NCBI GenBank assembly: GCA_016929595.1
Contig: JAFGIN010000021.1
Span: 1-64,000 of the forward strand
Source of the DNA: Chitinispirillaceae bacterium
GTDB taxonomy: Bacteria; Fibrobacterota; Chitinivibrionia; Chitinivibrionales; Chitinispirillaceae
Reading direction: 5' to 3'
Length of the DNA: 64,000 bases
The notes beneath the pieces were generated by a model. It did no database searches. It saw only the letters and a list, made by a program, of their open reading frames with translations, and was not told the DNA's origin. Position numbers and translations under genes: made by a program. This document shows positions 1-14,578 of the stretch, in pieces. Within the stretch, counting starts at the first letter, position 1. Each line of letters starts with the position of its first letter.

Positions 1-358
1 ACTGAGTAACTGAGTAACTGAGTAACTGAGTAACTGAGTAACTGAGTAACTGAGTAACTGAGTAACTGAGTAACTGAGTAACTGAGTGACTTGGTGACTT
101 GGTAACTTGGTAACTTGGTAACTGGGTAACTGGGTGACTGAGTGACTGGGTGACTGAGTGACTGGGTGACTGGGTGACTGGGTGACTGGGTGACTGGGTG
201 ACTGAGTGACTGGGTGACTGAGTGACTGGGTGACTGGGTGACTGGGTAACTGGGTAACTGGTAACTGGTAACTGGTAACTGGTAACTGGTAACTGGTAAC
301 TGGTCACTGGTCACTGGTCCACTGGGCACTGGTCACTGGTCACTGGGCACTGGTCACT
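1..358. repeat. Degenerate tandem repeat, 8-bp units changing to 7-bp units
   Basis: The first part is an almost perfect run of the octamer actgagta (1-88). It drifts through acttggta and actgggta to mixed actgggtg/actgagtg octamers (to about 256). It then switches to the heptamer actggta, and finally to actggtc with occasional cactgggc variants. Units in all frames carry stops, so this is not coding. It begins before the window and ends about 10 bp from the helicase stop codon. The graded change of unit along the array looks like slippage plus unit conversion. No function can be assigned. Confidence 0.95.
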
Positions 359-3286: not shown

Positions 3287-3523
3287 AAAAAGCCAATCCT
3301 TTTAATGAATCCTGATTTTTTTAAACGAAATATACTTTATAACGATGCTTTTTCCGGTCCGAAAAAACAAGACGCCAATGAATCCAGAAAAGCATGTGAA
3401 ATCTATCTTCCAGTCCTGCTTTTCCATCCGGACCTTAATTCACTAATATCAGGTAAACCATGAAAAATACTTCAAAACAATTCTCATCTTTGAATCCATT
3501 GAAAGATTTATTAAATTTTCATT

Positions 3524-4171
3524 ATGAGCAAAAAAATACCTGACCAGTTTGGTTTTTACGCTGTTTTAACAGATCCTCTTAAAGGATATGAGTACCTCAC
3601 AAGTGTTTGTGTTGAGTACAAAGTTGCTTTCGTTCAGCTTAGAATGAAAGATGTTCCGCTCTCGAGTATCTATAAAACTGCTGAATCAATGAAAAAAATT
3701 ACTGATGGCACCCGGACAAAACTTGTTATCAATGATTTTCCACAAATTGCAGCTGATATAGGTGCTGATGGGATTCATGTAGGACAGGGAGATGCACCAT
3801 ATGAAGAAGTACGCAAAATCGTCGGCCAGGAGATGATTGTCGGTATTTCCACCCACTCAGAGTCACAGGCAATCGAGACAAGCCGGCTGGATCCGGATTA
3901 TATCGGTGCAGGTCCGGTGTATCCGACCCCGACAAAAAAAATACCCGATCCTGCAATCGGCACCGATGGTTTAAAGAAAATTCTTTCCTGTACATCAATT
4001 CCGGCGGTTGCTATCGGCGGCATCAGTCTTGACAATTTCAGGGACGTGCTCTCTACCGGTGCCGTTAATTTCTGCATGGTTCGCCAGTTTACACAATCAC
4101 CCACCCCGGAAAGAGTCATCAAAACGATCCAGACCATTTACAATGAGTATTATCCGGGATTTTACGGGTAA
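3524..4171 (+). CDS. thiE: Thiamine-phosphate synthase
   Basis: A 215-aa TIM-barrel enzyme of the ThiE/TenI family. ThiE joins HMP pyrophosphate and the thiazole phosphate to give thiamine monophosphate in the cytoplasm. Visible signatures are VQLRMKD near residue 38, the NDFPQIAADIGADGIHVGQ stretch near 72-90, GPVYPTPTKK near 130 and AIGGIS near 163. The length matches the family. The GPVYPTPTKK loop is the phosphate/substrate loop that favours ThiE over TenI, but TenI is not excluded. No other thiamine gene and no TPP riboswitch is visible nearby, and the ATG at 3524 has only a weak ribosome binding site. Confidence 0.88.
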   Translation: MSKKIPDQFGFYAVLTDPLKGYEYLTSVCVEYKVAFVQLRMKDVPLSSIYKTAESMKKITDGTRTKLVINDFPQIAADIGADGIHVGQGDAPYEEVRKIVGQEMIVGISTHSESQAIETSRLDPDYIGAGPVYPTPTKKIPDPAIGTDGLKKILSCTSIPAVAIGGISLDNFRDVLSTGAVNFCMVRQFTQSPTPERVIKTIQTIYNEYYPGFYG

Positions 4172-4295
4172 ATAAATCCGCCCTCCTCTGAAATCATTTA
4201 CATTAAGAAGTTCTTTTCGGCACGTTGATTGCAGTCATTTATTCTGTTTTTTCGCTGCAGTATTACGAAATTTGATTAACAGTAAGGGAGGAGTC

Positions 4296-4745
4296 ATGCT
4301 AGAATCAGAATTAATCGAAAAATTGAACTCTATGATCAGGCTTGATAATGATGCGTTATCAAGTTACAACAAAGTACTCGACAACATTAATGAACAGGTC
4401 ATCAAATCGGAAATTACCAAATACAGGGATGATCATTTACGGCATGTAGATAATTTGTCAGGTCTGATAATAAAGTATGGTGGTGTTCCAACCAGAGATG
4501 ACAAGGATATTCGGGGATTGTTTTTAGGATCAGCCACTGCAATACAGAATATAGCAGGTTTGCAAGGTTCACTTATGGCATTGCAAACGGGTGAAAAATT
4601 GACCAATAAAGATTATTCGGAAGCTGTTTCCTGGAATGTTCCTGAAGATGTACTACTGATACTGAAAGACAATTATGAAGACGAAAAGAGACATTTGCGT
4701 TTTATTAATCAAGCGATAGCTGATAAGGTGTGGGAAAGAAGATAA
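4296..4745 (+). CDS. Ferritin-like four-helix protein (DUF2383-like)
   Basis: A 149-aa, wholly helical, soluble protein. The ATG at 4296 follows a strong GGGAGGAG site, so I prefer it to the upstream TTG at 4272. Spaced Glu/His positions fit a ferritin-like di-iron bundle: DDHLRHVD near residue 47 and YEDEKRHLRF near residue 130. Size and pattern recall the DUF2383/PA2169 group of ferritin-like proteins, whose function is poorly known. It stands alone between ThiE and a strong hairpin terminator at 4820-4872. Metal binding is inference. Confidence 0.75.
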   Translation: MLESELIEKLNSMIRLDNDALSSYNKVLDNINEQVIKSEITKYRDDHLRHVDNLSGLIIKYGGVPTRDDKDIRGLFLGSATAIQNIAGLQGSLMALQTGEKLTNKDYSEAVSWNVPEDVLLILKDNYEDEKRHLRFINQAIADKVWERR

Positions 4746-4819
4746 GCATATATTATTTGAATCAATTTCGGTATTACTTTACTGCTTACAGTAGCTGCGT
4801 GTAACAGGTGAAACTCAGG

Positions 4820-4872
4820 AAGGCCGATCATACTTATGCCCCTCATAAAAAGGCATAAGTATGATCGGCCTT
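4820..4872 (+). terminator. Long perfect hairpin terminator
   Basis: A 21-bp perfect inverted repeat (4820-4840 with 4852-4872) around an 11-nt loop. The distal arm runs into TTTT. It lies 75 bp after the ferritin-like gene and fits an intrinsic terminator, though the stem is longer than usual. Confidence 0.75.
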
Positions 4873-5089
4873 TTGAACAGACATGAGAAATAAGCAACAG
4901 AGCATAGACCCGGGAATTCTCTTCGAAAAGTGAGCATAAGATCAGAACTTATCAGCATACAGCTGAATACAGAATTTTTCTCATAATTGAGAATATAGTT
5001 GATAGTATTTTCCATTACAGTATATTACTTATAATAGCAGATGCTCATATATGACCATCTAATTGATATCACAACACAAGGAGGAAACA

Positions 5090-5872
5090 ATGGGAAAGCA
5101 CATTATCCGCCTCTCCCGCTGGTCCACCCGTTCACTATACCAGGTCTATAGTAGATTACTCACCCTGGTTTTTGCTCTTTTCTGTGGTGTAACAGGACAA
5201 ATCCAGAGGTCTGCATCGTCAAAACAGGCCAATAATACAACCGCAACGTTTAAAGGTACTGCCTACCTGGCCAGTGATTCCTCTGTACTCAAAAATATCC
5301 AGTTCTACCTTGAGAACTGTATCCTTGTCAGATACGGGATCATGCCCGATTACGGGATTATGCCGGAATACGGGGTCTCAGCATGGTATGGAATTAATAC
5401 CGGGACACCTTTAGCAACCTTTAAAACAGATGAAAATGGAAACTTTCAAACCCAGTTTTCTGCTCCTGTCAATAGAACCTACACTATTAGCAGTGAAGAT
5501 ATAGTGACACCAGGTGGAAAGGTGCGATACTATACATCAGGGTGTCTCACGATTAAAGCCGGTGTTGATACCTCATATACGCTCTATTTTCAGAATATGA
5601 CAACCTCGGCCACACCAGCACGCACCGACACCGAACATCAATTTACCCTTTCGGCTATTGCAGGGAAGGATTTCCTGTTTCAGATCCCGGATTGGAAGGG
5701 ACAGAATATATCTGCAGCCATAATCAATAGCCAGGGACAAAAGGTAACAACCCTGAACTCCGACGCAACCGGAAAACTGTGCTGGAACACAAGGGCAATT
5801 GCCGGTGGGATCTATTTTCTGCAGGTACAAAATGACAGGAATACTCTTTCTATGAAAATACTGGTTAAATGA
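5090..5872 (+). CDS. Exported substrate/partner of the rSAM-lipoprotein-type system, with YG hexapeptide repeats
   Basis: A 260-aa exported protein translated from ATG 5090 behind AAGGAGG. A basic N-terminus precedes a hydrophobic segment at about 20-36 that contains a Cys (ALFC); this is not a canonical lipobox. Next comes a beta-rich region with residues near 45-80. Four back-to-back hexapeptides start with Tyr-Gly at residues 82, 88, 94 and 100 (YGIMPD, YGIMPE, YGVSAW, YGINTG). A carboxypeptidase-regulatory-like beta segment follows, then a C-terminal T9SS/FlgD-like domain from about 185 ending GGIYFLQV...ILVK. Its stop overlaps the start of the radical SAM gene. The family resembles the partner proteins of the rSAM/lipoprotein system annotated in Bacteroidetes (TIGR04134-like, from memory). 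The YG region is inferred to be the modified site. Confidence 0.8.
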   Translation: MGKHIIRLSRWSTRSLYQVYSRLLTLVFALFCGVTGQIQRSASSKQANNTTATFKGTAYLASDSSVLKNIQFYLENCILVRYGIMPDYGIMPEYGVSAWYGINTGTPLATFKTDENGNFQTQFSAPVNRTYTISSEDIVTPGGKVRYYTSGCLTIKAGVDTSYTLYFQNMTTSATPARTDTEHQFTLSAIAGKDFLFQIPDWKGQNISAAIINSQGQKVTTLNSDATGKLCWNTRAIAGGIYFLQVQNDRNTLSMKILVK

Positions 5873-6966
5873 ACCGCATCGATAAATTATCACTGAAAAA
5901 GAAAATTGCGTTACGATTGTACTCTGCGAAACGCAAAGCCGATGCACGCGCACATGAGCTTCAATACCTGTTCTGGGAATGTACACTCCGGTGCAACATG
6001 GCGTGTCTTCATTGCGGAAGTGACTGCATGCGTGATGCAACAACACCCGACATGCCAATTAAGGACTTCACAAAAGTTCTTGACAGGATCAGCGAACATA
6101 CCAACCCTGCCAAAATTGTGGTAGCAATTACCGGCGGTGAACCACTCATGCGTGGGGATCTGCCTGAAGCCGGCAATGAGATTGCCAGACGGGGCTTTCG
6201 CTGGGGAATGGTAACTAACGGGTATTTACTCAATAGTAACAGAATGAAAGAACTGGTGCAGTCAGGCATCCGTTATCTGACAATCAGCTTTGATGGCCTT
6301 GAAGAAACACATAACTGGCTGCGCGGCAGAAAAGATGCATACGTACACGCTTGTGATGCAATTAAATATGCTTCAGAGGCCCGAAGTACCTCAGGACTAT
6401 TCTTTGATGTTGTCACGTGTGTCAATCAGCGTAACATCGGACAACTGGAGCAGATGAAAAAAGTGCTGACAGATCTTAAAATGCCGGCATGGCGTCTGGG
6501 AACTATCTTTGCCAAAGGACGCGCATCTGGAAATAAGGAGTTAACTCTTAACCGAGAGCAACTCTATCAACTGCTGGATTTTATCGTAGCGACACAGAAG
6601 GAAGGAAACATTTTCACCACCTTTGGATGTGACAGTTTTCTGGGCAGCTATGAAATGGAGGTTCGCCCTCAGCCTTTTTTCTGCTGGGCAGGAATAAATA
6701 TCGGATCAGTTCTTGTCGATGGATCAATCTCCGCCTGCCCATCACTGCGGGCCGATTACATTCAGGGCAATATCTATAAAGATGATTTTCTGGATGTCTG
6801 GAATAACCGGTTTCAGGTGATGCGCAATCGGGAATGGTTAAAACAGGGTGAGTGTGCAGACTGCAAGATGTGGAATCTCTGTCTAGGAAACGGTCTCCAT
6901 CTCCGCCGCGAAAGCGATCTCAAACTGCTGAGTTGTCATTACAGAGAAATGACAACAGATCACTGA
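5869..6966 (+). CDS. Radical SAM/SPASM enzyme, rSAM-lipoprotein-system type
   Basis: A 365-aa radical SAM protein. The 4Fe-4S-binding CxxxCxxC is C42, C46 and C49, within LFWECTLRCNMACLHCGSDC; this block closely recalls the rSAM/lipoprotein-system maturase family (TIGR04133-like). TGGEPLMRGDL (about 85-95) is the SAM-contacting GGE motif. The C-terminal third is a SPASM-like domain with Cys at the FFCWAG, ISACPS, ECADCKMWNLC and LLSCHY blocks, expected to hold auxiliary Fe-S clusters. Its ATG overlaps the TGA of the YG-repeat gene (ATGA), so the pair is translationally coupled. SPASM enzymes usually modify peptides; the neighbour is therefore the likely substrate. The chemistry performed cannot be read from sequence. 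Confidence 0.92.
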   Translation: MNRIDKLSLKKKIALRLYSAKRKADARAHELQYLFWECTLRCNMACLHCGSDCMRDATTPDMPIKDFTKVLDRISEHTNPAKIVVAITGGEPLMRGDLPEAGNEIARRGFRWGMVTNGYLLNSNRMKELVQSGIRYLTISFDGLEETHNWLRGRKDAYVHACDAIKYASEARSTSGLFFDVVTCVNQRNIGQLEQMKKVLTDLKMPAWRLGTIFAKGRASGNKELTLNREQLYQLLDFIVATQKEGNIFTTFGCDSFLGSYEMEVRPQPFFCWAGINIGSVLVDGSISACPSLRADYIQGNIYKDDFLDVWNNRFQVMRNREWLKQGECADCKMWNLCLGNGLHLRRESDLKLLSCHYREMTTDH

Positions 6967-7281
6967 ACAGGGAGAAGCAATTCCTTCAGTAATCACCCTG
7001 ACAAAAATAATCTGAATCGGACGATTGTAACTGCTGTTCTTTAGTCGTAAGGTATGGTACGTTAGCACCGTTTAAATTCTACCGCTTTCCTTCAGGTGAT
7101 CTGTTCGCATTTTTGGTATCTTGAGTTTGCAGATACCCACCCGAGCATAACACTGCTGACTTCAAAAACCTTTCAACAGTGTCTTCAAAAACCTCAGGCA
7201 CCGGTGCCTGAGGTTCTCGAAGGCACCGGTACTGGTCGACAGGAAATCGTCGGTTGGAGAATATGAGACCTGGTTTTTATC
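6967..7281. other. Convergent intergenic region with a 26-bp palindrome
   Basis: 315 bp between the convergent rSAM and hydrolase genes. It contains two copies of a cttcaaaaacct motif (about 7160-7172 and 7182-7194), the perfect palindrome 7190-7215 and a partial copy of its core (aggcaccggt, 7221-7230). No credible coding sequence is seen. Confidence 0.7.
7187..7215 (-). terminator. Palindromic terminator for the minus-strand hydrolase
   Basis: The 26-bp palindrome at 7190-7215 (arms of 13 bp meeting at accggt) is followed on the minus strand by a run of five T. It lies about 65 bp beyond the hydrolase stop codon, which suits an intrinsic terminator. A dimeric protein site is an alternative. 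Confidence 0.5.
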
Positions 7282-8754
7282 CTATTGTTTCATGAGGCTG
7301 TTCTGCTCAACTTTCACGCGGGAATCGGAGCAGAACGTGCAGTTCGAGCCATAAAAATACTTGCGGCTTGCAGTATCGTTCATCAGGTGACCCCTGAACC
7401 ATGCGGCAGCTGCAGAAAGAGAGACACCATTTGCTCCCTGATATACCCAGTAACCATGATCAGAAGCGAGCTCATTGAGGAAAAAGGCTGGTTGATCTTT
7501 AACAGACAGGAAAATATCTTTGACTCCACTACATTTTACCGTTTCGTCTTTTCCACCACAGTGAAACAGTATCGGAGTGTGAAGGCCCTTAAGCTCAGCA
7601 GTTCCACAAATCGTCATCAGAGCCTTGTAGCGAGGGTCAGCCGCAGTATTGCAGGTTGACATTCCGCCATATGAATGGCCATACTGGCCGATTTTTGATA
7701 TATCAAGACAATGGTAATAGGGACTGCTTGGATCCTCATTCTGCTCAATTATCCAGTCCATACCCGTAAGCGTAGGATAAGGTTTCGTTCCTGTTGCCGT
7801 GCTCAGTGATGCTACCACAACAAAACCGTGCGAAGCAAGATGCTGTAAAATAGGCAGATACTGTCCACACCAATTTTGATTACGATCAAGAACACATTTG
7901 CCATTCGGTTCTGGATTATCCCGATACCCATTAGCCCATATCAGAATGGGGTGCAGATACCCGCTGGTCTTAAGGTTCTTGGGACGATACACATTAAAAC
8001 GCATCTGCTTACCGTAGACCGGATCATCAGCAGTGCCAGCCAGAGGGCCTACATCTTTGTCTGCAGCCACCTCGAACGGACCCGCTGCGGCAGGATTAGC
8101 TGTAGGAAATTGCTTCCCAACAATGATTGAATCCAGAGTGATATCCTGTTTCTGATTATCGAGCGAGGTAATAGCTACAGACTTTTCCTTAAAACCAGTT
8201 GCAGAGACCTTTATGGTATCGACAACTGCAGCTGCCGCCATCAATCCGCTACGGTTGGGAACTGTTGACGTCGCATTGACAGGGCTTACAACCGATCGTC
8301 CACCATTAAGTGACATGTAGCGGAAAGACACTTCCGACTTGCCCATTGCAGCTCTGATCAGAAGGGCTTTTGCAACCTGGCAATTTTTTGTAATGTCAAA
8401 TCGATAAATTCCCGCAGGCACATCAACATTTATCTCCTGTCTTAACAGTTCACCTTTCAAATTAAATATTTCCACTTTTATTGGTGAAGGAGTTCCAACT
8501 GCAAATTGTAATACGTCATTATTTAATGAGATTCTGTTGACACGAGGCACAATCGCAGGAAGTGTTGCCACCTGACTTGTAAAAGAATATGTACCGTCAG
8601 TACCGGTGGTATCCTTCATTTTTTGATGTACCAGTGAAACAATGGCATTCGGAATAGCTTTGCCTGCTGAATTGGAAATCGTGCCTCGCAAGTTAATAGT
8701 TTGTGCACTCACTGCCAATCCTGCGCATAAAATCGCAGTAAACATTTTGGACAT
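7282..8754 (-). CDS. Secreted alpha/beta-hydrolase (PETase/chlorophyllase-like) with beta-sandwich N-terminus
   Basis: A 490-aa secreted protein from ATG 8754, which has AAAGGA upstream and starts a clean signal peptide (about 1-17, ending SAQ); the longer reading from 8844 adds a hydrophobic stretch without support. After the signal comes a carboxypeptidase-regulatory-like domain. It seems interrupted by a T9SS/FlgD-like beta module (VEIFNLKGELLRQE ... PAGIYRFDI, about 85-120) before it resumes near KVSATGFKEKSVAI. The C-terminal 270 residues are an alpha/beta hydrolase. The nucleophile elbow is GHSYGG, an acid is likely at CGGKDETV and the histidine at SDHGYW. It resembles the dienelactone hydrolase/PET hydrolase-type esterases. 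The substrate is unknown; carbohydrate esters are possible in this organism. Confidence 0.8.
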   Translation of the reverse strand: MSKMFTAILCAGLAVSAQTINLRGTISNSAGKAIPNAIVSLVHQKMKDTTGTDGTYSFTSQVATLPAIVPRVNRISLNNDVLQFAVGTPSPIKVEIFNLKGELLRQEINVDVPAGIYRFDITKNCQVAKALLIRAAMGKSEVSFRYMSLNGGRSVVSPVNATSTVPNRSGLMAAAAVVDTIKVSATGFKEKSVAITSLDNQKQDITLDSIIVGKQFPTANPAAAGPFEVAADKDVGPLAGTADDPVYGKQMRFNVYRPKNLKTSGYLHPILIWANGYRDNPEPNGKCVLDRNQNWCGQYLPILQHLASHGFVVVASLSTATGTKPYPTLTGMDWIIEQNEDPSSPYYHCLDISKIGQYGHSYGGMSTCNTAADPRYKALMTICGTAELKGLHTPILFHCGGKDETVKCSGVKDIFLSVKDQPAFFLNELASDHGYWVYQGANGVSLSAAAAWFRGHLMNDTASRKYFYGSNCTFCSDSRVKVEQNSLMKQ

Positions 8755-9556
8755 AATGATTCCTTTGATTAAAATTACAATATTTAATATAAAGGAAAAA
8801 AAACTTAAATGTGACATGATTGACATAATTACTATATATTGCAAAGTTTCACTTCTACTGTTACGATAAAATTGCCACGTATAATCTCAAATTACACGTG
8901 GACACATCTGTCCACATTTCTTTTTTCGATAACAGGTTATTACTGAAAAATCGCTATCTCAATCCATGGAGTAAAAGCCGCAGGTAACAAAGCTTGATAG
9001 TTGAACAACTGGTTGAAAATCAGTTTTTACCACGAAGGGCACGGGGAAGTTTGAAGAGGGAAGTTTGAAGGGAGAAGGGTGAAAGAAATTCTTTATCTTT
9101 TTTCCCTCTGTGTCTCTGTGCCTCTGTGTGAGATATTTCTTTCCCCCGGTAACTTGAAGAAATTTTACCACGAAGAGCACGAAGGAACACGAAGAAGAAG
9201 AGGATGCTCTCACGGAGACACGGGGGCACGGAGAAGTTTGAAGGGTGAAGGGTGAAAGAAATTCTTTATCTTTTTTCCCTCTGTGTCTCTGTGCCTCTGT
9301 GTGAGATATTTCTTCCACCGGTAACTTGAGGAAATTTTACCACGAAGCGCACGAAGGAACACGAAGAAGAAGACAAAAAAAGGCTCTCACGGAGGCACGG
9401 GGGCACGGAGAAGTTTGAAGGGTGAAGGGTGAAGGGTGATGGGTGAAGGGTGAAAGAAATTCTTTATCTCTTTTCCTCTGTGTCCCTGTGCCACTGTGTG
9501 AGATATTTCTTTCCCCTTGCGGAAACATAAATACCTCGCACACGAACAATTCTTCA
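8755..9556. other. Long intergenic region, mostly dispersed repeat
   Basis: 802 bp between two minus-strand genes. 8755-9015 is AT-rich and should hold the hydrolase promoter. 9019-9520 consists of dispersed repeat units. Reading frames that translate the repeat as HTEAQRHRG-type peptides are artefacts. Confidence 0.8.
9019..9520. repeat. Dispersed low-complexity repeat, three tandem units
   Basis: Three units of about 160-180 bp. Each has a block of the form ccacgaag..cacgaaggaacacgaagaagaag, then a tcacggagacacggggg-like block, then aagtttgaagggtgaagggtgaaagaaattctttatc, then the block cctctgtgtctctgtgcc and ctctgtgtgagatatttctt. The tcacggag block and the cctctgtg block are imperfect inverted complements, so each unit can fold into a long imperfect hairpin. 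Diverged copies recur at 11110, 12170 and 13912. Confidence 0.9.
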
Positions 9557-10426
9557 TCACAATTTGCATTGAATCTTCCCAGCCACATGCAAAAAAAACT
9601 CCTTTGACCAGACATCAAGTTCACGGGGGTCCCTGACAAACCGTTCAACGTCTTCCTTTATTTGAGTAAAATTGACAGTTTTTATTCTTTCGGAAAGAAT
9701 CCCCAAAAACGACTTGTCGTCAAGAGGTTCAATCTTCGTATAAAATTTGATCTGTCGCAGTCGTGCTTCAAGATGACGGAGGTTGAGCGGAATATTTTTC
9801 CGGACAAAAAATACCAGATCGTACCAGTCTCGTCCCTTTACCCGATTGTTCCATGACCTGGCAAGAACTGCTGCCATTTTTCCTGCGAAAAGTGATGCCG
9901 GATCGTAAATCGCAATGCTGAATGGCACCGGATCGTCAACATACCGTACTTCAAAGCCAGCTTCAGGTGGGGGATCGGTGTCAATTTCCAGTTTCACTTT
10001 GGTTACCTCTTCTGAATGTAATTGCCTGGCAAGCTGTGGCTCAAGAAAAGTTTCGATCAGGACCTGCCTTGTAGTGGCTTTAATGAATGCCGATTCTATC
10101 GGTGTAATGACCTTTTTTTCACGCATTGTTACTTCTGTTACAAAACCAAATGATGCAAGCTCTTCCCTGATACCGGAAATATATGAATCGAGTGTAAATC
10201 CCGAAAGCGGTGCCCTGAGTGAAAAGTCAAGATCTTCAGAAAATCTATCAAGTCCGTAGACAATTCGCAAAGCAGTACCACCATAAAAAGCAGCTTTAGC
10301 AAAGAAATCTGTTCGGGATAGGCCCAGAAGTGCAATAAGTTGGATCAGTTCGGCAATTGTTTGCTGTACCGATCCGTTGTTTCGCTTTTGATATTCGTCA
10401 AAAAGTTGATCAAGTGCGTTTTTCAT
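9557..10426 (-). CDS. abiEii: AbiEii-type nucleotidyltransferase toxin
   Basis: A 289-aa member of the AbiEii/AbiGii nucleotidyltransferase family, the toxin of type IV toxin-antitoxin and abortive phage-infection systems. The nucleotidyltransferase signature is clear: FYGGTALRIVYGLDRFSEDLDF at about residues 47-68, with the GG(S/T) and DxD-type acidic residues. KVKLEID near residue 142 and a conserved AGKMAAVLARSWNNRVKGRDWYDL block near 180 also fit. The start overlaps the end of the upstream gene by ATGA, as expected for an antitoxin-toxin operon. The family is known to arrest growth by transferring nucleotides to cellular RNA acceptors; the target here is not known. Confidence 0.88.
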   Translation of the reverse strand: MKNALDQLFDEYQKRNNGSVQQTIAELIQLIALLGLSRTDFFAKAAFYGGTALRIVYGLDRFSEDLDFSLRAPLSGFTLDSYISGIREELASFGFVTEVTMREKKVITPIESAFIKATTRQVLIETFLEPQLARQLHSEEVTKVKLEIDTDPPPEAGFEVRYVDDPVPFSIAIYDPASLFAGKMAAVLARSWNNRVKGRDWYDLVFFVRKNIPLNLRHLEARLRQIKFYTKIEPLDDKSFLGILSERIKTVNFTQIKEDVERFVRDPRELDVWSKEFFLHVAGKIQCKL

Positions 10427-11040
10427 TTTTTCATACTCCTTATCAGACGGGCAAACGTCTCAACCGTCGTGCTTTTATATAATGGAGCAAGCTCACTTAT
10501 TATCTGCGTATCAACGCTCAGAAGGTCTTCATAATCAATGCGCAAGTCGTCAAACAACAGTTTTTCCAGTCGCCTGAGCGACCGTATGGTACCGGTTGTA
10601 GATAGTTCGTCACACAATGCTTTTTCCGGTGTAGCAACAAGAAAGCGGACACCATTTTCATTACGGTAGGTAACAGCCCTGTGAAAAACCGCAGCGGGAA
10701 CATCACGATAAAAAAAAACGCCTACCGGAGTTACAAAGCGCTTTGAGCGGTGCTTACCCCTTGTTGCAGAAGTTACATTCGGCACATATTCGGGGATAAA
10801 ATTGTAGATCCGCAGTGCATATGCAAATGAAACATATGATGGCCCATACAGTCTGTTGGCAATACAGCCTCCGGGAAAATGGTTTGCTACAGCATTGCTC
10901 GTTATATACAACCCTCTTTTAAGCCGAATCAACTCCTTTTTTCGTTCAAGCGCAGCAATTTTTGCGCGAGGATCAGCATAATTCTGAAACTGGTTGTTGA
11001 GCCATAGTGTATCAGGAAGTGGAATGGGAATATTCTGCAT
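10423..11040 (-). CDS. abiEi: AbiEi-type antitoxin / regulator
   Basis: A 205-aa protein encoded directly upstream of and overlapping the AbiEii gene. ATG 11040 has GGAG upstream; the longer reading to 11091 lacks one. The N-terminus has a short winged-helix-like segment with KKELIRLKRGLYITSN, the hallmark of AbiEi antitoxins. The body has GPSYVSFAYALRIYNFIPEYVP and VATPEKALCDEL, also typical of that family. In studied systems AbiEi represses its own promoter and neutralises AbiEii at the DNA/regulatory level. Dispersed repeats flank the operon on both sides, consistent with an accessory insertion. Confidence 0.85.
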   Translation of the reverse strand: MQNIPIPLPDTLWLNNQFQNYADPRAKIAALERKKELIRLKRGLYITSNAVANHFPGGCIANRLYGPSYVSFAYALRIYNFIPEYVPNVTSATRGKHRSKRFVTPVGVFFYRDVPAAVFHRAVTYRNENGVRFLVATPEKALCDELSTTGTIRSLRRLEKLLFDDLRIDYEDLLSVDTQIISELAPLYKSTTVETFARLIRSMKK

Positions 11041-11109
11041 AATCGCTCCAGTTAGTAGTATAAATATACGTTTAATGGAGCAAACTTGCAATTATTATTC
11101 ATTATTTAG

Positions 11110-11432
11110 AATTTTTTACCACGAAGGGGCAGGAAGAAGTGTAAAGGGTGAAGGGTGAAGTTTGAAATAAATTCCTTTTTCTTTTTTTCTCTGTGGCTCT
11201 GTGCCTCTGTGCAAGATATTTCTTTCACCGGTAAATCGAAGAAATTTTCACCACGAAGTGCACGAAGGGGCACGAAGAAGAAGACAAAAAAAGGCTCTCA
11301 CGGAGGCACGGAGAAGTTTGAAGGGTGAAGGGTGAAAGAAATTCTTTATCTTTTTTCCTCTGTGTCTCTGTGCCTCTGTGTGAAATATTGCTTTTTCAGC
11401 TTCAGGTTTTCCTTCTTCGAATTTCACCCTTC
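11110..11432. repeat. Dispersed low-complexity repeat, two units
   Basis: Two diverged units of the same family as at 9019. The ccacgaag block occurs at 11118 and 11250, the tcacggaggcacgg block at 11298, the gaagggtgaa block at 11140 and 11321, and the ctctgtg block at 11190 and 11357. It fills nearly all the space between AbiEi and the broken ATPase, and extends to its 3' end. Confidence 0.88.
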
Positions 11433-11439
11433 ACCCTTA

Positions 11440-12055
11440 TCAATAAGCTCCACCCCACAACCGTAAAAGAAACTCCTTCCAGGGCAACACTTCAATTTTT
11501 CCTATTTGTCGTGGCATAGCATCAAGCGAGACTACGATAGCATACTTCATGATATTTTCACTGGTAAATCTTTGAAGCGCTTTGATACGTTTGTCGGTTA
11601 CCATTCCGGTTGATTTGACTTCGATTGCAACATCATCACCGATGATAAAATCAACCTCATTACCACTATAATCGCGGTAAAACGTAAGTGGTCTTTTATC
11701 ATTCGCATACTGCAGGTATGCATGCAGTTCACAGAAAATGAACTGCTCAAAACTCTTGCCGAACAGTTCAGTATGTGGAAGAATCGATTTTCTTCCTGCA
11801 AGTTGATTGCAGACACCAATGTCAAACATATAGAATTTTGATGTAGAAAAGGCTTTTCGCTGCTGTCTTTTGCTATAGTGATGGTCGCAGACTTAATCGT
11901 GCAAACTGATCAGATAACAAGAGGTTGTAATACGGGGATTCAGGAAAAAGTTTCCGCAACAAAGAAGTTTTTCCAGTCTGGCGCGGACCGAAGAGAAAAA
12001 TCGATCGTTTTGAAGCGATATCTGCAAGATTAATCGCCCTTTTATAGTAATTCAT
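11440..12055 (-). pseudogene. Internally deleted AAA/DUF4143 ATPase
   Basis: The remains of a P-loop ATPase of the type fused to DUF4143. The N-terminal piece (12055 down to 11873) keeps a start, an intact Walker A (GPRQTGKTS) and about 60 residues before a stop. The C-terminal piece (about 11829 to 11440, other frame) keeps KFYMFDIGVCNQLAGR and a PD-(D/E)XK-like GNEVDFIIGDDVAIEVKS core and ends normally. Roughly 200 residues that should hold Walker B and the rest of the ATPase are absent. The gene therefore suffered an internal deletion plus frame change and should be inactive. Repeats lie on both sides. Confidence 0.8.
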
Positions 12056-12167
12056 AGCTATAAAATAACTTTAAACTATAAATTCTGCAACTCTATTGCG
12101 GATATTTTGCTAATTTCAGCATAACTGTTGCGGATTTTCATAATTTGAGCACTCAAACAATCATACA

Positions 12168-12476
12168 TCTTTTACCACGAAGAGGCACGAGGAAGGGTGA
12201 AGTTCGAAATAATTTTTTTTTCCCCTCTGTAACTCTGTGCCTCTGTGTGAGATTTTTCTTCCATCGGTAAATCGAAGAAATCTTCACCACGAAGAGCACG
12301 AAGGTACACGAAGATACATATAGGATAAATACAAAACAGTTTCATTGACATTCAACAAAACGCTACTTTTTTAATTCTCTTAAAATCAAACATCTTTTCT
12401 TTTTTTCCTTCGTGCTCTTCGTGCTCTTCGTGGTTAATCTTTTCCCCTCGGTGTCTCTGTGTCTCTGTGTGAGCTC
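12168..12476. repeat. Dispersed low-complexity repeat with inverted ends
   Basis: Copies of the ccacgaag block at 12174 and 12286, a ctctgtg block near 12225, and a reversed copy near 12408 (ccttcgtgctcttcgtgctc, then ttcgtgg). The last is the inverse complement of the first, so the segment could form a stem of about 30 bp around a 100-bp AT-rich loop. It separates the broken from the intact DUF4143 ATPase. Confidence 0.85.
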
Positions 12477-12516
12477 CATTTATCTTCATTTTCAATGCTG
12501 ATCAACACCAAAACAT

Positions 12517-13809
12517 TTACATCAGGAACCATTCTATTGCCGGAATTATTTGAATCTTACGGGAATTATCCTGTAAATTTTCAGTACTATTGAACGTTAT
12601 TATTCCGCCATTGCTAATATTTAGCTCTTTAAAAGCCTCTTCTAATCCGCCAATTTCCCGCTGCAGATTATTATTGTCAAGATTCCAGCATACCTGCCAT
12701 GCACTTTCAGGGTGGGAATCGGTCATCACTACAAAATCACATTCTCTTTTTCCTTTATAATAGCAGGTTCGTGATCCTCTGCGAAAAAATTCGCCAGCCA
12801 CAGCAGTTTCCAATAATTTACCGCGATAATCAGATCCAGATAACGTCAGCAGGCTGAAACCGGTATCTGTCAGGTATACTTTTTCCGGATTCATGGTACG
12901 TTTTCTTGCTGACCATGAAAATTTTTCGCTTGAAAGAAGAAAAAATGCTTCCTGAAGATATCGTAAATATGAAGCAACACTTCGCTTACTGCCACTATTG
13001 CCTGATTTTTGAAGTTGACTAGTATACGATGATACAGAGAATAGTTCTCCACTTCCATTGAGCACCGCCGACATGACACCATCAAGTAAATCACGTGCCT
13101 TTACACTGTACCTATCAATGATATCTCTGTAAAAAACGGTCTCATAATAGTTCTGAAGAAGATGTCGTCGAGATGATTTTTCAGTTAGCGCACAAACCTC
13201 CGGATAGCCACCGTTAAAAATCCAATCTTCAAATGCACCATTGACAATACCTCTACGTGAAGTGTGTAATGCTGAAGAACTGAAATCAATATTTTTAAAC
13301 CGCAGATATTCTCTAAAAGAAAATGGCATCAAAAGCACATCGTTATAGCGACCCCGGAGTTCTGTTGCGATTTCCCTTTTCAGTAATGAGGAATTACTTC
13401 CAGTAATGGTGATTGAATATTTACGTTGATTATGCAGCGTCCTGAGTAATTTACTCCAATCTGGAACCTGCTGGATTTCATCGAAAAACAAATACCGGGG
13501 CTGCTTTTTTGTAAGCTGTTGAAAAGCTTCAATGACAGAATCTATATGTTCAGGCTGGAAACCTTTCAATCTGTAATCTTCAAAATCAAGAAACAGGATA
13601 TCATCACGCGAAACCCCCTTTTTTACTAAGGCCTCAATTTTTTGAAACAGAAAAAATGTTTTTCCTGCACGTCTTGGGCCAACGACAGCGGTAATAGAGC
13701 CTGTTCCAGGTTGCGAAATCTCATCATTCAGTTCTCTCACCAGAAGAGACGGGAATGTAGTTTCATACAGCCACTCAGCAACGATTTTTAGTAGTAATTC
13801 AGATTTCAT
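12517..13809 (-). CDS. AAA ATPase with DUF4143 C-terminal domain
   Basis: A 430-aa intact relative of the neighbouring pseudogene. Walker A is GPRRAGKTF at about 41-49, Walker B is YLFFDEIQQV near 105-114, and a sensor-like ITGSNSSLL sits near 135. The DUF4143 region carries KVYLTDTGFSLLTLSG and GKRECDFVVM, the latter where a PD-(D/E)XK-like core would sit. Such genes are abundant in genomes with many accessory elements; their cellular function remains unknown. It is flanked by dispersed repeats, and three short AAACAAT-type motifs precede its start. It is monocistronic. Confidence 0.85.
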   Translation of the reverse strand: MKSELLLKIVAEWLYETTFPSLLVRELNDEISQPGTGSITAVVGPRRAGKTFFLFQKIEALVKKGVSRDDILFLDFEDYRLKGFQPEHIDSVIEAFQQLTKKQPRYLFFDEIQQVPDWSKLLRTLHNQRKYSITITGSNSSLLKREIATELRGRYNDVLLMPFSFREYLRFKNIDFSSSALHTSRRGIVNGAFEDWIFNGGYPEVCALTEKSSRRHLLQNYYETVFYRDIIDRYSVKARDLLDGVMSAVLNGSGELFSVSSYTSQLQKSGNSGSKRSVASYLRYLQEAFFLLSSEKFSWSARKRTMNPEKVYLTDTGFSLLTLSGSDYRGKLLETAVAGEFFRRGSRTCYYKGKRECDFVVMTDSHPESAWQVCWNLDNNNLQREIGGLEEAFKELNISNGGIITFNSTENLQDNSRKIQIIPAIEWFLM

Positions 13810-13828
13810 AATATTTTGTTTATCCTGT

Positions 13829-13869
13829 TAAACAATTTTATCATAAATTGTTTCTTTTATTAAACAATA
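13829..13869 (-). promoter_or_regulatory. Triple AAACAAT motif, possible operator
   Basis: Just upstream of the DUF4143 ATPase start lie taaacaattt (13829), aaattgttt (13845, inverted) and taaacaata (13861). The alternating orientation and 16-bp spacing suggest an operator. This is suggestive only, because the region is AT-rich. Confidence 0.3.
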
Positions 13870-13911
13870 ATACTATAAGTTACCCGATGAAACAAGGTGT
13901 TGGTATGTTTT

Positions 13912-14035
13912 TTAACGAAGAAGAAGATTCTCTCACGGAAACACGGGGGTATGGAGAAGTTTGAAGGGTGAAGGAGGAAGGGTGAAGGGTGAAATAAATT
14001 CTTTTTTTCCTCTGTGTGAGATATTTCTTCCACCT
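13912..14035. repeat. Dispersed low-complexity repeat, partial unit
   Basis: A truncated unit of the same family: aacgaagaagaagattctctcacggaaacacgggg, then gaagtttgaagggtgaaggaggaagg, then cctctgtgtgagatatttcttccacc. It ends about 20 bp from the cyclophilin stop codon and closes the repeat-delimited accessory zone. Confidence 0.85.
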
Positions 14036-14053: not shown

Positions 14054-14578
14054 TCAATTAGTGTAGCCATTGACTGTAACCTTAATCATTTTGACAGGTT
14101 TTACAGGGCGGTCCTGACGGTCTGTTTTTGTTGTTTCGATGGCTTTGATTACCTCCATACCTTTGATAACCTTGCCAAATACCGGATGACGAGACGAACC
14201 AGGACCAAACCAGTCAAGAAAATCATTGTGGGCGGTATTGATAAAAAACTGTGATCCTCCACTGTCGGGTTCACCAGTGTTTGCCATTGCCAATGTCCCC
14301 GGTTCATTTGAAATCTTTGCATCTTGAGGGAACTCATCTTTTATGCATCCGGAATCGGGACCACCAGTTCCAGCCCGGGGACTTTTGGGATCCCGGCTGT
14401 AGGGACACCCGAACTGGCACATGAATCCTTCAATTACCCGATGGAAATGCAGTCCATCATAAAAACCAGCCTGTGCAAGATCCAGAAAGTTTTTTGCAGT
14501 GACAGGCATCTTATCAAGAAACAGTTCAACTTCAAAAGTCCCAAGTGATGTTTCACAAGTAGCAGTTGGATTTGACAT
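14054..14578 (-). CDS. Cyclophilin-type peptidyl-prolyl cis-trans isomerase
   Basis: A 174-aa cyclophilin that catalyses cis-trans isomerisation of prolyl bonds. Recognisable core residues are [13 protein letters not shown] (active-site Arg and Phe, about 49-61), [21 protein letters not shown] (about 97-118), and [14 protein letters not shown] (about 140). No signal peptide is present, so it is cytoplasmic and PpiB-like. It has Cys residues not usual in the family ([15 protein letters not shown]). AAGGAGC lies before the ATG. Monocistronic. Confidence 0.95.

Follow-up and report, generated by a model that had tools for sequence, protein, structure and literature searches.

Palindromic heptamer repeats at every gap of an AbiE/ATPase island in a Chitinispirillaceae genome

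The window analysed here is the first 64 kb of the 102-kb contig C63 from a draft genome of a Chitinispirillaceae bacterium (6.6 Mb in 224 contigs, 95% complete). Between the genes of a PETase-like hydrolase (7282-8844) and a cyclophilin (14054-14578), it holds an island with an AbiE toxin-antitoxin (TA) pair and two AAA_14/DUF4143 ATPase genes, one of them broken. Repeat search and unit alignment identified at least seven related repeat units in this island, grouped in four clusters, one at every gap. Iterated-heptamer palindromes (CACGAAGNN and relatives) form a family found in many phyla, and we give about an even chance to the clusters being copies of a non-autonomous passenger element of that family, similar to repetitive extragenic palindromic (REP) sequences, miniature inverted-repeat transposable elements (MITEs) and the palindromic elements of Rickettsia (RPE). 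Numbers beginning with G, C and L denote genomes, contigs and loci, respectively.

Repeat clusters of the island and their relatives in the genome and phylum

The initial annotation had placed related units at 9019, 11110, 12168 and 13912, separating the AbiE pair, the broken ATPase and the intact one, and both the repeat search and the alignment bore this out (Table 1). The seven aligned units share 77-92% pairwise identity and the direct units of all clusters are oriented along the + strand. They are composed of CACGAAG, repeated one to three times at 9-10 bp, of CACGGAG (with a CACGGGG variant) and CTCTGTG, repeated one to three times at 8 bp, and of GAAGGGT, all these blocks being placed head to tail. 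Clusters 1-3 show a common order, in which a short unit is followed by a longer element. The short unit consists of ACCACGAAG, a G-rich bit, the GAAGGGT linker and CTCTGTG, and the long units U2, U3 and U5 contain three CACGAAG, CACGGAG blocks, the linker and CTCTGTG blocks. The suggestion that the complementary blocks may fold was also upheld, as the three pieces folded as DNA (one each from clusters 1-3) beat all 200 shuffles, with z values of -3.1, -3.9 and -7.3.

The exact flavour of the island was not found elsewhere in the draft genome. All 10 genome matches to CTCTGTGNCTCTGTG fall within the island (9106-12469; one match for the backward control), as do the five exact matches to ACCACGAAGNNCACGAAG (none for the control). 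When a 166-nt query was compared with its own genome by BLAST, 9 of 11 matches were in the island and the other two were matches of 28-29 nt to the GAAGGGTGAA linker. The family had been regarded as dispersed, and mapping over the full genome contradicted this for the exact flavour. Unseen copies may exist, since the assembly is a draft and repeats break contigs.

With two mismatches allowed, 31 matches were obtained, seven in the island and 24 outside, and 21 of the latter were of the ACCACGAAANNCACGAAA flavour (backward controls, 3 and 1). This native CACGAAA variant (CACGAAANN / ACCACGAAANNCACGAAA) has 21 exact sites, one of them in contig C49 and the rest over other contigs. Its copies have two arms and a body in common, and some of them are adjoined by (ACTCAGTC)n-like arrays. 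Alignment of the native copies revealed neither a clear boundary nor a target duplication. Contigs C210, C220 and C7 end less than 100 bases from a native copy (L205, L207 and L217), so that the assembly probably undercounts the repeats. At 15 native loci, one or two neighbours were scanned at each, with L217 and L219 left out and L220 and L221 being one-mismatch sites. The 22 neighbours include OadB, RecO, GH45, GH8, a His phosphatase, MntP, MarR, isoamylase, a penicillin-binding protein, RelA/SpoT, Dus and others, and none belongs to a TA or defence family; a weak AAA_21 match at L220 is an ABC transporter ATPase and was not counted as defence. Therefore, the absence of the repeat from core genes holds for the exact flavour, but not for the CACGAAA flavour, whose 21 sites accompany ordinary genes where scanned. 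Among the 167 genomes searched for this phylum, 12 contain the native pattern. One of them, G005, carries dense clusters and, arrayed in tandem at a period of about 132 bp, complete elements (L315 3610-4356, L316, contig C6), and its scanned neighbours are mixed (GIY-YIG, ferritin, VRR_NUC and a Na/H exchanger). At the contig start, window positions 1-355 hold short-period tandem arrays (ACTGAGTA, ACTGGGTG and ACTGGTA).

The CACGAAG flavour was found in 5 of the 167 genomes, the one of the window included. G067, whose match lies inside an open frame, was excluded from the locus count, and six loci remain. Accessory genes adjoin four of these six vs none of the 15 native loci (Fisher p 0.0025 with C49 left out, 0.009 with C49 counted as native), so that within the phylum this flavour tends to accompany accessory genes. 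The ATPase beside the element in G035 was considered as an orthologue of the window ATPase and rejected, because the identity was 22% over part only.

In-frame elements in a restriction operon and the family across phyla

A second island, in contig C49 of the same genome, is a type III restriction operon, and its Mod (type III methyltransferase) gene has two elements inside, in frame. Mod was compared with three homologues, one from Phaeobacter and two from Acinetobacter plasmids, and four of its stretches of at least six residues are missing from all three. Those of 9 and 29-30 residues correspond to a single arm and a full element, respectively, both in frame. The stretch of eight residues falls on another short repeat (CTTCGACAAGCTCAG type, at L204 5182), and no recognised repeat was found at that of six. 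In-frame insertion into a protein gene, the property that marks RPE-like elements, is thus seen twice in Mod relative to 3/3 homologues. As judged from this sequence comparison, the inserts are the best evidence in our analysis that the family may move by insertion. Repeats of the CTTCGACAAGCTCAG type were also observed at L204 12464, L039 2530, L088 4570 and 6487, L220 4262 and L224 6505.

The elements of C49 are of a third flavour, mostly of the GCCACGAAA type, and they occupy several junctions of the operon, standing around GxxExxY and RhuM, with none around BRO-N. Two plasmid records carry helicase, DUF4391, Mod and Res, the last two being separated by an RNA-binding-domain gene in one of these records, and a third one carries DUF4391-Mod-Res only (the record is cut beside DUF4391). 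Relative to this gene order, C49 has GxxExxY, BRO-N and RhuM in addition, the first and the last of which are bracketed by elements.

A cross-phylum contig scan gave at least 120 stretches, and 80 loci were listed, from many phyla by record title; 10 of them, judged from ORF (open reading frame) size and sequence to be coding chance matches, were dropped. Twenty genomes were chosen from the 80 listed loci, several for their high number of matches, and the exact pattern was present in all of them (from 2 to 219 matches per genome, 19 genomes having them on both strands), the backward control matching in one. One arm carries CACGAAG, CACGAAA or CACGGAG, and the other CTTCGTG or CTCTGTG. CACGAAG heptamers are separated by a spacer of 2-3 nt and often form inverted two-arm elements: 40 inverted pairs were counted for 93 deduplicated forward-arm sites, the rest being single-armed at this stringency. 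Terminal inverted repeats of 15-30 bp are expected for MITEs, and the 40 pairs agree with this. The heptamers were part of the search pattern and their arm-to-arm match consequently proves nothing. In the dinucleotide spacers of the 40 pairs, 27 of 80 positions pair (null mean, 24.7), and this lack of covariation favours recognition of the heptamers over a perfect hairpin. The upstream consensus of 183 arms, in which reverse arms were not deduplicated, is T-rich and then A/C-A-CCACGAAG, and no GTAG or CGTC tag was found at this upstream end.

Several further proposals were discarded. Mobilisation by a REP-associated tyrosine transposase (RAYT) is unsupported: although a Y1_Tnp match occurs in 19 of 21 genomes, a strict two-heptamer match lies within 1.5 kb at only 2 of the 30 Y1 transposase loci examined, and a loose one at two more. 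Adaptation to reading frames is not evidenced by CACGAAGNN being always open in 5/6 frames, because 102 of 400 random heptamers are equally open. As for plasmids and phages as carriers, a 41-nt consensus was detected in 1 of 72,556 and 0 of 50,697 records, respectively, and some matches may be hidden by the BLAST low-complexity filter.

The flanks of the cross-phylum elements (179 near ORFs, one of 180 longer than 2000 aa having been dropped) are mainly ordinary, with alanyl-tRNA synthetase, TGT, CTP synthase, chorismate synthase and HSP90 among the matches listed (25 of 188 and 25 of 132 Pfam families). Enrichment near accessory genes had been anticipated. For defence genes it was not seen across phyla: 76 families of PADLOC defence models were matched near the repeats vs 103 far from them, with 106 ORFs in each set (106 of the 180 near ORFs, without repeat inside and of up to 450 aa, and 106 of 160 size-matched controls), these counts being of families, not of ORFs, and both sets looking largely generic among the 25 matches listed for each. 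In 20 stretches from two acidobacterial genomes (18 of them from G175), elements often lie tens of bases or less from the end of a called gene. One protein of G175 has, by position only, a single arm in frame between its Competence and Lactamase_B domains. Other elements in longer open frames precede the matched domain or lie in frames lacking a Pfam match, and for them the true start may be downstream or the frame may be spurious. By eye, the repeat runs directly into an apparent GxxExxY gene start at L084 7548 and into an apparent decayed GxxExxY gene at L062 6453. Seven tandem copies, about 85 bp apart, were observed in a Bacteroidales metagenome-assembled genome (L064 5312-5835).

Regarding the location of the island, close homologues of its flanking genes within the same family have 70% (hydrolase) and 82% (cyclophilin) identity, so that the island belongs to this genome and is not a binning error. 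Among the genomes searched, which include no other one of the genus, G021 and G022 have close homologues of both flanking genes, on separate contigs. The best match of AbiEii in the plasmid records searched has 41% identity, and the intact ATPase lacks a near relative in the phylum, the best being at 36%, although some match exists in 126 of the 167 genomes.

Table 1. Repeat clusters, island genes, restriction operon and CACGAAG loci (window coordinates unless a contig or locus is given)
Feature	Location	Strand	Description
Cluster 1	9024..9516	+	short U1 9028-9152, long U2 9160-9330, long U3 9333-9516, head to tail
Cluster 2	11110..11398	+	short unit U4, long unit U5
Cluster 3	12170..12475	+	short U6 12170-12275, inverted CACGAAG element (arms 12278-12303 / 12417-12442), CTCTGTG block
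Cluster 4	13912..14034	+	U7, truncated long unit
AbiEii-type nucleotidyltransferase toxin (type IV TA)	9557..10426	-	Pfam PF08843 E 9.1e-32; PADLOC AbiEii E 1.6e-97
AbiEi antitoxin	10423..11091	-	PADLOC AbiEi E 4.3e-60; without Pfam match
Broken AAA_14/DUF4143 ATPase	11440..12060	-	tblastn: N-terminal piece 11909-12016, C-terminal piece 11473-11862
Intact AAA_14/DUF4143 ATPase	12517..13809	-	Pfam PF13173, PF13635; PADLOC PDC-S01
Type III restriction operon	L204 (G000 C49) 3324-8625		helicase, GxxExxY (PDDEXK_3), DUF4391, BRO-N, Mod, RhuM, Res
CACGAAG locus	window island		AbiE, DUF4143
CACGAAG locus	G021 C58		two like-oriented copies, second imperfect, around DUF4160/DUF2442 pair
CACGAAG locus	G021 C173		MqsA-like (below Pfam cut-off), nucleotidyltransferase, DUF6036 genes
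CACGAAG locus	G035 C28		DUF4143 ATPase adjoining
CACGAAG locus	G021 C3		PEP carboxykinase adjoining
CACGAAG locus	G022 C94		Cass2 adjoining; counted as not accessory

Possible origins of the island repeats

If the clusters are copies of a passenger palindromic element, such copies would have moved by insertion and would settle in intergenic gaps and sometimes in frame within genes. The AbiE/ATPase segment may have brought the island flavour from another lineage, and the tandem units would then have been amplified on the spot, through slippage or unequal recombination, a step supported by the 132-bp period arrays in G005 and by the U1-U2-U3 succession in the island. The repeats would then travel as passengers, tagging the lineage of the modules imported, and would not be sites dedicated to recombination. 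In favour of this explanation are the confinement of the exact flavour to the island, the pattern in all 20 genomes chosen across phyla, the dispersed native variant, the in-frame inserts of Mod, the position of the G175 arm, the spacers that do not pair above chance and the lack of a near relative of the intact ATPase in the phylum. Several data weigh against it. The base composition of the island is unremarkable (GC of 0.37-0.45 in 1-kb steps vs 0.39-0.47 in the surroundings). Neither an empty site nor a target duplication nor a mobilising gene was found, the search for a parent element covering Y1_Tnp only, nor was any donor identified. The genes of the window itself showed no in-frame insert, and the CTCTGTG blocks are spaced 8 bp vs the 9 bp of the elements, so that the kinship of the window units with these elements may be only partial. 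In Mod, indels also occur without this element, as the stretch of eight residues falls on a different repeat and that of six on none. Finally, we chose the accessory categories after seeing the data, and few loci are behind the 4/6 proportion.

The initial annotation had read the order of the units as recombination sites, and exchange of accessory cassettes, which would enter and leave by homologous or site-specific recombination at the repeats, seems unlikely to us. Like-oriented clusters bracket every module of the island, elements bracket the extra GxxExxY and RhuM genes of C49, two like-oriented copies bracket the DUF4160/DUF2442 pair in G021, and the proportion of CACGAAG loci touching accessory genes, with the Fisher values given above, points in the same direction. 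However, this bracketing was spotted post hoc, without control; BRO-N, also extra in C49, is unbracketed, and in one plasmid record, too, an extra gene separates Mod from Res. Neither do the ordinary cross-phylum flanks and the lack of enrichment in defence models agree with cassette exchange. The domain scan of the four island ORFs did not find any recombinase domain. In addition, mapping by tblastn with a distant Simkania homologue (29-50% identity) indicated that the broken ATPase lacks about 198 central residues of this homologue, with the junction at about 11863-11908. This deletion lies between two clusters, as had been pointed out, but there is no repeat at its junction: the closest repeat sequence on either side (up to 11398 and from 12170 on) is at least about 260 nt away, and for this reason the deletion does not resemble recombination between clusters. 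The link with accessory genes thus stands inside the phylum, whereas the trading mechanism lacks support in both the domain scan and the deletion.

Growth of a low-complexity satellite by slippage and duplication, with spread by gene conversion and no insertion step, could explain the head-to-tail units of the island, the 132-bp array of G005 and short-period arrays such as that at window 1-355. We find it improbable, since inverted two-arm elements at many separate places of the genome, and in-frame inserts of one arm and one full element in one gene, are hard to obtain by slippage alone. A similarly low probability is attributed to functional RNA or DNA structures under selection, which might act at gene ends as terminators or by stabilising mRNA. 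Folding above chance would fit such a role, as would the location of native copies, which are mostly at 3' ends (6 convergent, 7 tandem and 1 divergent among 14 loci with two neighbours, counted by eye with a few small ORFs ignored). Nevertheless, the arm spacers lack covariation, many sites are single-armed, no Rfam family matched the window at the gathering threshold, and copies within coding genes are unexpected for a terminator. We also hold as doubtful the wider proposal of one trans-phylum 9-bp heptamer-iteron mini-element, mobile, with host-specific flavours and in-frame entry, which would provide portable homology for assembling defence or TA operons.

If the repeats are passengers of imported modules, they serve as markers of defence modules imported into this phylum and can insert in a gene while leaving it intact, and they could therefore be used to trace the exchange of modules between phyla. 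No name for this widespread family was found in the open-access papers searched, in which a 16-letter repeat string is absent and shorter strings appear, among the matches listed, only in papers unrelated by title. Which protein recognises the heptamers is a concrete question.

Comparison with known repeat systems

Integron attC sites are folded repeats with a single orientation which lie between accessory cassettes. The island repeats likewise fold, share their orientation and separate accessory modules. However, no integrase was matched by Pfam in the nine ORFs scanned from the island and next to it, and elsewhere the repeat family stands beside ordinary genes.

RPE are described as short non-autonomous elements of about 150 bp found in frame in unrelated protein genes (PMC10969869). 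The in-frame inserts of short palindromic elements in C49 are like them by description. In contrast with that length of about 150 bp, the arms here are made of an iterated 9-bp heptamer, and an insert can consist of one arm, about 27 nt long. According to another report, REP repeats of the GTAG and CGTC super-families are high-copy intergenic palindromes which form inverted pairs, occur sometimes in genes and extend over several phyla (PMC3733652). All these traits are shared by the present family, but its upstream consensus lacks the GTAG/CGTC tag of that description and its adjacency to Y1 transposases is low (2/30 loci).

Finally, TAACTGA heptamer direct repeats of Beggiatoaceae, Cyanobacteria and Bacteroidetes form intergenic arrays for which horizontal transmission has been suggested, without an evident mechanism (PMC4679880). 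The present repeats resemble them in being intergenic heptamer arrays across unrelated lineages, and the arrays at window 1-355 are similar both to these TAACTGA heptamers and to the arrays beside native CACGAAA elements. Whereas TAACTGA repeats are there direct and head to tail, CACGAAG heptamers have a spacer of 2-3 nt and are often organised as inverted two-arm elements.

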